Virus record (IMG/VR): IMGVR_UViG_3300009168_000069
Coordinates: 1 to 41,568 of that record
Length of the DNA: 41,568 bases
Reading direction: 5' to 3' (one strand)
From: a virus
Below the pieces are notes generated by a model, which saw only the letters and a program-made list of their open reading frames with translations, was not told the DNA's origin and made no database searches. This document shows, one piece after another, positions 17,246 through 23,794 of the stretch. How positions within the stretch are numbered: the stretch's first letter is position 1; every line of letters starts with the position of its first letter. A program made the translations under genes and the position numbers.

Positions 17246-17277
17246 CAAAGTTAAATATTAATTTTGACATTTCCAAA
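17246..17277 (-). promoter_or_regulatory. Strong Bacteroidota-type phage promoter
   Basis: Minus strand: TTTG, a 20-base spacer starting GAAATGTCAAAA, then TAACTTTG. It exactly fits -33 TTTG and -7 TAnnTTTG. It is followed by C and A bases suitable for a start site and lies after a terminator. Confidence 0.5.
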
Positions 17278-19917: not shown

Positions 19918-19949
19918 CAAATATAAATACTTATTTTAACATTTCCAAA
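19918..19949 (-). promoter_or_regulatory. Bacteroidota-type phage promoter
   Basis: Minus strand TTTG, 20-base spacer starting GAAATGTTAAAA, then TATATTTG followed by C. Nearly the same spacer start as the promoter at 17246-17277. Confidence 0.5.
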
Positions 19950-21741: not shown

Positions 21742-21773
21742 CAAAGTTATAAACTATATTTGACATTACCAAA
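21742..21773 (-). promoter_or_regulatory. First promoter of the leftward arm
   Basis: Minus strand TTTG, a 20-base spacer starting GTAATGTCAAA, then TAACTTTG and C. It decides the start of the downstream gene (21727). Confidence 0.5.
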
Positions 21774-22805: not shown

Positions 22806-23021
22806 ATGAAAATTCAAAAGATTGTATCTCAACACAGACGTGACTTCACAGCTATTTATGAATGTGAACACTGTGGACATACACAAGAAGGTGATGGATA
22901 TGATGATTCATACTTCCATCAAACTGTTATACCTGGTAAGGTTTGCCCCGAATGTGGGAAGAAGGCAGCTGATGATTACAGACCTTTAGCTACTAAATAC
23001 CCAGATAGTGTAACAATATAG
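22806..23021 (+). CDS. Small zinc-ribbon protein
   Basis: 71 residues with CEHCGHTQEG and CPECGKKA, two CxxC knuckles about 30 residues apart. Typical of small phage zinc ribbons. Last gene before the large gene-free region. Confidence 0.5.
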   Translation: MKIQKIVSQHRRDFTAIYECEHCGHTQEGDGYDDSYFHQTVIPGKVCPECGKKAADDYRPLATKYPDSVTI

Positions 23022-23596
23022 CTATGATAACAATTCAGATGATTGGTCTCACGAATTTTAATTAGTGCATGTGCACAAGGAGGTTATGATGCGTTGAGTA
23101 ACGTATGTTATTTTACTACATGTATCGCTAAGCACCAGCGACTATAAGATTGAGTGCTAATCTTGTCACCGTTCAATAGACTTACTTAGCAATGAATGGA
23201 GAGACTGTTAGTGGCGGTACTGACCTCTTTGAAGCCCACAAAAGTCTGGGCAATATGTATTTGTATTAGTTAAATCCTTGCCTTATTCATAAGGGAATAA
23301 GCTCATTACAGGTAGGTAAAGCCTGTTATTAATATTCACACCTAATGCACTAATTAGTGTGAGGGTGATGATATAATGCATGGAGACTCATAAAGTCAGA
23401 ATCAACTGGTGATAGCATATCAAAGTGCATTGGCAGCTAAGATAAATATAACTAGTCTTTGGGGATAGATAGACATTAAACACTTCCATTCTTAGCCTTC
23501 ATATGCGAAAGCATCTGTCGTATAGTATTATTAAACTAATTGTGCAACTCTGACTTGATAACCAGAGTAATAATAAATAATTAAAATTATATTATT
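23022..23596 (+). ncRNA. Candidate large structured non-coding RNA (about 520 bases)
   Basis: No plausible gene on either strand over 575 bases, but dense helices. Hairpins: 23126-23140 (CGCT/AGCG), 23146-23164 (AAGATT/AATCTT), 23234-23251 (GCCCA/TGGGC), 23282-23301 (CTTATTC/GAATAAG), 23308-23326 (ACAGG/CCTGT), 23336-23362 (ten pairs, one bulge), 23436-23442 with 23490-23496 (GCTAAGA/TCTTAGC), 23503-23514 (ATGC-GAAA-GCAT, a GNRA loop), 23547-23568 (ACTCTG/CAGAGT). Kissing loops: AGCAC (23131-23135) with GTGCT (23154-23158), and loop GCACTA (23347-23352) with TAGTGC (23063-23068). TGCACAA (23072-23078) pairs with TTGTGCA (23540-23546) to close the whole. Size and style recall ROOL/GOLLD-type phage RNAs, but the class is unproven. 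Confidence 0.5.
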
Positions 23597-23794
23597 ATGA
23601 AAAAATTACTTACTAGACCTAATTTCTTTCTCTGGTCATTTGGTTTAATTGTAGCAATAATTCCTTGGGGTAAATTAATATCCGACCCTTGGATCTGGTT
23701 TCAATGGTTTGGATTAGCAGTAGCTGTATACAATTTGATTTTAATTATTGTATATAGAAATAAATATAATATGTTTGATATACTTGATGAATAA
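23597..23794 (+). CDS. Small two-helix membrane protein
   Basis: 65 residues: FFLWSFGLIVAIIPWGKLI and WFQWFGLAVAVYNLILIIVY are two transmembrane helices, with a short basic N-terminus. AT-rich leader directly before the ATG. Unknown function. It lies between the structured RNA and a lipoprotein. Confidence 0.5.
   Translation: MKKLLTRPNFFLWSFGLIVAIIPWGKLISDPWIWFQWFGLAVAVYNLILIIVYRNKYNMFDILDE

Follow-up and report, generated by a model that had tools for sequence, protein, structure and literature searches.

The question raised by this locus is whether a gene-free gap between two phage genes encodes a structured RNA and, if so, of which kind. The window, i.e., the whole stretch of DNA analysed here, is a viral record of 41,568 bases, in which the gap (23022-23596) is bounded by the open reading frames (ORFs) 22806-23021 and 23597-23794. 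A first-pass annotation had described the gap as free of genes, which was confirmed, with no ORF of at least 35 aa on either strand (the longest has at most 34 aa), and had proposed from its many perfect helices a large structured phage RNA. The folding energy was unremarkable, with z -1.63 over the whole 575 nt (6 of 100 shuffles did as well), -1.05 on the opposite strand of the same 575 nt, and -0.39 for the conserved core of 253 nt (61 of 200 did as well), so that perfect helices, however many, are no evidence by themselves in a single AT-rich sequence. Folding energy is uninformative on this RNA, and it is the comparative evidence that decides.

A DNA search of the whole records of relatives returned order-preserving matches in two contigs (G007 and G005), mutually identical over the region, and strings common to the window and these first matches were used to make two search patterns, TTAGCCTTCAN{6,36}GTCGTATAG and CTAATTGTGCRAN{3,12}TTGATA. 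These patterns added nine members, resulting in 11 distinct sequences, i.e., the window and ten homologues (L091, L108, L110, L111, L112, L115, L132, L142, L166, and L167); pattern matches without the remaining conserved strings were considered false and dropped. For another pattern, AGCCTTCA..GTCGTATAG, every new match was false. In a pairwise search, L091 and the window shared 61% identity over 263 aligned positions (E 5.7e-11). The core measures approximately 190-390 nt among members and about 250 bases in the window, where the region comprises the following features:

23022-23267, + strand: 5' gene-free part, for which no homologue was found
23268-23327, + strand: 5' shoulder, common to L091 only, with AAAUCCUUGCC, a hairpin at 23282-23301, and the hairpin CAGGUAGGUAAAGCCUG at 23309-23325
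23328-23575, + strand: conserved core, a full-length cmsearch match of models R1 (E 1.5e-25) and R2 (E 7.6e-26), the window being a training sequence and the independent test being the held-out L111, L167, and L132
23339-23367, + strand: hp1, CACC 23339-23342 with GGTG 23364-23367, 100% paired in the 11 sequences
23374-23432, + strand: P2, 23377-23384 with 23422-23429, extended by 23374-23375 with 23431-23432; two-sided changes in 8 of 10 pairs
23397-23408, + strand: P2b, hairpin CAG-AAUCAA-CUG within the P2 arm, with the loop AUCAA at 23401-23405
23433-23545, + strand: closing helix, GCA 23433-23435 with UGC 23543-23545, given by RNAalifold and invariant in the 11 sequences
23436-23496, + strand: P3, GCUAA 23436-23440 with UUAGC 23492-23496, extended by 23441-23442 with 23490-23491
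23500-23517, + strand: P4, hairpin CAUAUGC-GAAA-GCAUCUG with a GNRA tetraloop; two-sided changes in 7 of 7 pairs
23523-23538, + strand: P5, UAGU 23523-23526 with ACUA 23535-23538; 93.9% paired, two pairs covarying
23536-23546, + strand: near-invariant strand CUAAUUGUGCR, in which CUAAUUGUGC is identical in 11 of 11
23547-23568, + strand: P6, terminal hairpin ACUCUG-ACUUGAUAAC-CAGAGU, with the conserved loop UUGAUA

Of the extent proposed earlier, conservation covers the core, at approximately 23328-23575; from 23022 to approximately 23270, the window has no detectable homologue in the ten loci, the best comparison being equalled by 40 of 200 shuffles. Homology with L091 extends 5' to approximately 23272. 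In L111 and L166, the core begins almost immediately past the upstream stop codon and, therefore, the 5' part is not needed. L142 (G022) carries approximately 700 more gene-free bases 5' of its core, partly common to L110, which may represent an enlarged 5' region in one clade. As a separate observation, further copies of the shoulder hairpin CAGGTAGGTWAAGCCTG of L091 and the window (23309-23325), which may be due to chance, lie in gaps free of genes in three other contigs, at L096:13635-13651, L100:4391-4407, and L101:1937-1953 (- strand); the one in L096 lies just 5' of an HNH-like ORF, with eight further common bases upstream.

Concerning the fold, the patterns constrain only TTAGCCTTCA, GTCGTATAG, CTAATTGTGC, and TTGATA, leaving the stems of hp1, P2, P4, and P6 unselected. 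In an alignment of the 11 sequences with variable inserts trimmed (A2), a 44-pair structure was 92.7% paired, with two-sided changes in 27 of the 44 pairs (96 cells). The covariation score was 0.514 against a shuffle mean of 0.149, and none of 500 shuffles scored as high, statistics that ignore kinship (L110, L142, and L115 are related); controls with slid partner strands reached at most 0.114. Compensatory changes were found in nearly all pairs of P2, P4, and P6 (in the latter, 6 of 7 pairs, and 7 of 7 after model-based alignment), and in hp1, where CACC is replaced by CUCC with GGAG in L111 and by CAUC with GAUG in L167. P3, P5, and the GCA/UGC closing helix are mostly invariant and speak neither for nor against pairing; in P3, five pairs are invariant and two covary strongly. 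Moreover, RNAalifold yielded the same helices without an input structure, and untrimmed sequences aligned to the model were 93.9% paired with a score of 0.583, in an alignment fitted to the structure. Furthermore, the R2 model, made from eight members, recovered the three left out (L111, E 1.7e-13; L132, E 1.3e-9; L167, E 6.8e-11), and its best match outside the members had an E-value of 0.098. Judged by sequence comparison, covariation and held-out recovery indicate a real structured RNA, and a conserved fold in this region of the window can be considered next to certain.

The structured RNA read from the window alone is, in this way, borne out by covariation in 11 homologues and not by folding energy, and the covariation that the first-pass annotation had suggested seeking is strong in the 44-pair structure, but most of the helices it listed are not conserved. 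Its GAAA tetraloop hairpin is real (P4), the loop being GAAA in 9 of 11 aligned sequences. The helix proposed between 23072-23078 and 23540-23546 is present in the window, but TGCACAA occurs within 700 bases upstream only in L132 among the homologues; UGC 23543-23545 more likely pairs with GCA 23433-23435, a helix that is invariant in the 11 sequences and was placed independently by RNAalifold. Neither of the kissing pairs formerly suggested was sustained: AGCAC/GTGCT occurs in none of the ten homologues, and GCACTA/TAGTGC, which relies on variable sequence (the 5' part or the loop of hp1), is not conserved. The 11-base switch pairing and its competing local hairpin (23336-23362) were lost on the same grounds, as the 5' part and the hp1 loop vary.

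The closing helix encloses P3, P4, and P5; P2 is contiguous with it and P6 lies one nucleotide past it, and therefore stacking of the three is plausible. Variable material is found inside P3 and in the loop of P5, which among homologues has as few as about 5 nt (L111) and as many as about 100 nt. The fixed unpaired strands are AUAYYUACACC, GAUAAUAU, UUCA, GUCGUA, and AUUGUGCRA, with the conserved GAUGAUAU / GAUAAUAU 3' of hp1; CUAAUUGUGC, in the CUAAUUGUGCR strand, belonged to the pattern by which four members were found.

A different loop-loop contact emerged from the homologues. The P6 loop, UUGAUA in ten members and UUGAUUA in L111, complements a stretch within P2 that in most members belongs to or borders a hairpin loop, over 8 bp (L110 and L142), 7 bp (L091, L112, and L115), 6 bp (L108, L132, and the window), or 5 bp (L111 and L167); L166 offers only a 5-bp non-loop match, its kissing being weak or absent. 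Summed over the 11 sequences, the complementarity amounts to 70, compared with a mean of 52.9 (sd 2.8, maximum 63) in dinucleotide shuffles. In L111, the loop (UUGAUUA) and its partner (UAAUC) are altered together. These data support a likely kissing of the P6 loop with the inner loop of P2 over 5-8 bp, within one molecule or between molecules. In the window, the partner is probably the P2b loop AUCAA (23401-23405), with some ambiguity from a second candidate, UAUCAA near 23417-23422, that overlaps P2.

Regarding the source, crAss-like phages belong to the most abundant viruses in human guts and the environment. The capsid protein of the window is approximately 31-36% identical to those of crAss001, phi14:2, DAC15, cr111_1, and many uncultured crAss genomes, and families of phage head and packaging proteins, portal and terminase, are also present. 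The crAss-like capsid and terminase by which Crassvirales membership was tested were thus both found, and these protein matches identify the window as part of an environmental crAss-like phage. Its near relatives by capsid sequence are numerous contigs, mostly at 74-89%, two of them of about 100 kb. Gene 22806-23021 encodes a Cys-rich protein of 71 aa (phrog_14808) with a weak Lar-like restriction-alleviation match; its DNA is approximately 70% identical to that of genes from phages of Streptococcus, Yersinia, and Acinetobacter, and the gene appears to have been widely exchanged between phages. On the - strand, that of the structural arm, an extended motif (TTTGGWAATGTYAAA...TTTAWCTTTG) is repeated at 2521-2552, 17246-17277, 19918-19949, and 21742-21773 (four matches with at most three mismatches, against none expected from shuffles), and this promoter-like motif is a candidate Bacteroidota-type or phage-specific promoter.

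Searches beyond these members were unproductive. In genome contigs, a first exact-pattern scan gave no matches and a second pattern scan gave false ones only; DNA similarity search of the RNA region against the phage collection gave nothing above noise. With gene 22806-23021 as bait, the relatives recovered were in other phages, which lack the RNA. Staphylococcus phages gave a 96% match that lies antisense within a transposase gene and was due to chance. In 18 genomes of Flavobacterium phages and of crAss-like phages, cultured or from the gut (including crAss001, crAss002, phi14:2, DAC15, uncultured crAss genomes, an Azobacteroides phage, and two Flavobacterium phages), matches were weak, at most 18 bits, and those displayed were without the conserved strings. 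No RNA match was found in 296 Bacteroidota genomes, under stricter filters and in a set without a positive control, and in G006, a 101-kb relative with a 79% identical capsid protein, the RNA is absent or undetected. Either the RNA family is patchy, or divergence exceeds the reach of the model.

Among the RNA-bearing records, nine of 11 carry the crAss-like capsid and terminase (phrog_11589 and phrog_6681), and neither was present in the remaining two, which are fragments (34.7 and 43.1 kb). Throughout the nine, the RNA lies on the strand opposite to capsid and terminase, 5-16 kb from the terminase, and points away from the structural block. In five long genomes, it is found inside the co-oriented arm, 1.4-14 kb downstream of the divergence point (1-6 kb past it in four, 14 kb in G018). 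Neighbour genes and their proteins are common only to the L110/L115/L142 clade and otherwise differ; this setting argues for a position-conserved element with exchangeable neighbours. Some observations apart from the RNA were also made in these records. Terminase matches in G018:C1:30666-33962 and G006:C1:17927-20995 are split by approximately 1.1-1.2 kb with no stop codon (open frames of 1148 and 1125 aa, respectively), probably by inteins. In a 155-kb phage contig, approximately 700 bases at L101:970-1660 (- strand), from a small ORF to a tRNA-Met, are apparently gene-free and possibly another large RNA.

How such an element works can be proposed with less assurance. The reading we put forward, to which we would give roughly even chances, is that of a new structured non-coding RNA family of environmental crAss-like phages, with P6-P2 kissing, acting in trans. 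The RNA would be transcribed with the early or replication-arm transcript, or from a promoter of its own, and would fold around the P6-P2b contact, which, if intramolecular, would lock the fold. It may then serve a factor of the phage or the host as scaffold or binding platform, with a protein, or other copies of the RNA, recognizing it through the fixed unpaired strands. Action in trans is inferred because the sequence-specific unpaired strands are constant from phage to phage and the neighbour genes are not. Points against it are the same-strand genes on either side and the lack of a convincing promoter or terminator of its own; further limits are a family of only 11 members and a closing GCA/UGC helix that, like most of P3, never varies.

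Same-strand neighbours and the lack of such signals would suit a cis-acting element of the rightward operon, i.e., a put/EAR-like antiterminator, an attenuator, or an RNA-processing site acting on its own transcript. The RNA sits inside a same-strand operon and, in four of the five long genomes compared, soon past the point of divergence; neither a promoter nor a terminator of its own was convincingly recognized, and most members have a start codon a short way past P6. However, its size, large optional insertions, and long-range kissing exceed those of known put/EAR elements, and it is unlikely to be the leader of any given gene, since what lies downstream is not conserved. In the same context, a cis-regulatory leader of one particular gene was rejected, the downstream gene being common only to the L110/L115/L142 clade. 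We consider a cis role a tentative second choice. More doubtful is a new crAss-like RNA class whose UUGAUA/UAUCAA loops would, early in infection, assemble it into a particle of RNA only or of RNA and protein.

A ribozyme, self-cleaving or the remnant of a self-splicing intron, would account for the compact junction, the near-invariant unpaired strands, the GNRA loop, and the variable peripheral inserts, as in large ribozymes; it is improbable, as no intron or ribozyme of Rfam was matched, the gene upstream is full-length (it covers phrog_14808 over positions 1-71 of 71), and no split gene was seen. A group I intron reading of UAUAGU/ACUAGU was also rejected, ACUAGU not being conserved. Slightly more improbable still is an origin-linked RNA, a replication primer or regulator, suggested by the cumulative GC-skew minimum of the window at about 22-23 kb, beside the RNA; members lie at distances of about 1.4 to 14 kb from the divergence point, and in the linearised records the skew minima did not fall consistently at the RNA. 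Chance helices in an AT-rich intergenic gap, with which a folding energy that is not unusual would agree, are refuted by covariation and held-out recovery and retain practically no probability.

In practice, the RNA of these trans-acting or cis-acting readings offers a secondary structure fixed by covariation and a specific loop-loop contact to mutate, and the covariance model lets its range and function be tested directly.

Compared with known families, the covariance search suggested by the first-pass annotation matched no family: the window gave no match against 4227 models of Rfam 15 at the gathering threshold, the ten homologous loci gave tRNAs only, and the RNA of the window and of L091 had no match at E<=5. 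ROOL, GOLLD, and OLE, as well as group I and group II introns, were rejected for want of a match, as were HEARO and OMEGA guide RNAs, which would call for an adjacent IscB/IsrB/TnpB gene; the five genes that surround the RNA in the window matched no Pfam family. In the papers searched on crAss-like phages, no structured or conserved non-coding RNA was described. The put and EAR antitermination elements, of about 65-120 nt, resemble the new RNA in being structured, early in a long operon, and with little regard to downstream genes, but they are smaller, and antitermination is a hypothesis here. The pRNA of phi29 is a phage RNA with complementary hairpin loops that could assemble into a ring; the likeness in hairpin loops is an analogy only, whereas the new RNA has no Rfam match, belongs to another phage family and fold, and would be linked to packaging only hypothetically. 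Thousands of candidate structured RNAs have been reported from human microbiomes (PMC8040213), and the best reading is a new family of structured phage RNA, "new" being relative to Rfam 15. The idea of a large structured phage RNA, possibly of a new class, is upheld by strong covariation, the absence of an Rfam match, and a conserved genomic setting, and the assignment to ROOL or GOLLD is not, for neither covariance model was matched. GOLLD is a large structured phage RNA of unknown function, studied by cryo-EM; both ROOL and GOLLD often lie near tRNA islands and form homo-oligomeric RNA cages (PMC12286853). The new RNA differs from GOLLD in its core of 190-390 nt, against more than 800 nt, and from ROOL in its smaller core. 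As to tRNA islands, the window has no tRNA, and within 1 kb of the RNA, a tRNA occurs in at most two of 11 members (L108 and L111). With GOLLD it shares a large phage RNA with kissing loops, a conserved 3' region, and a less conserved 5' part, and with ROOL a structured phage RNA with kissing loops and a variable disordered insert (PMC12286853), a likeness of style rather than of membership.
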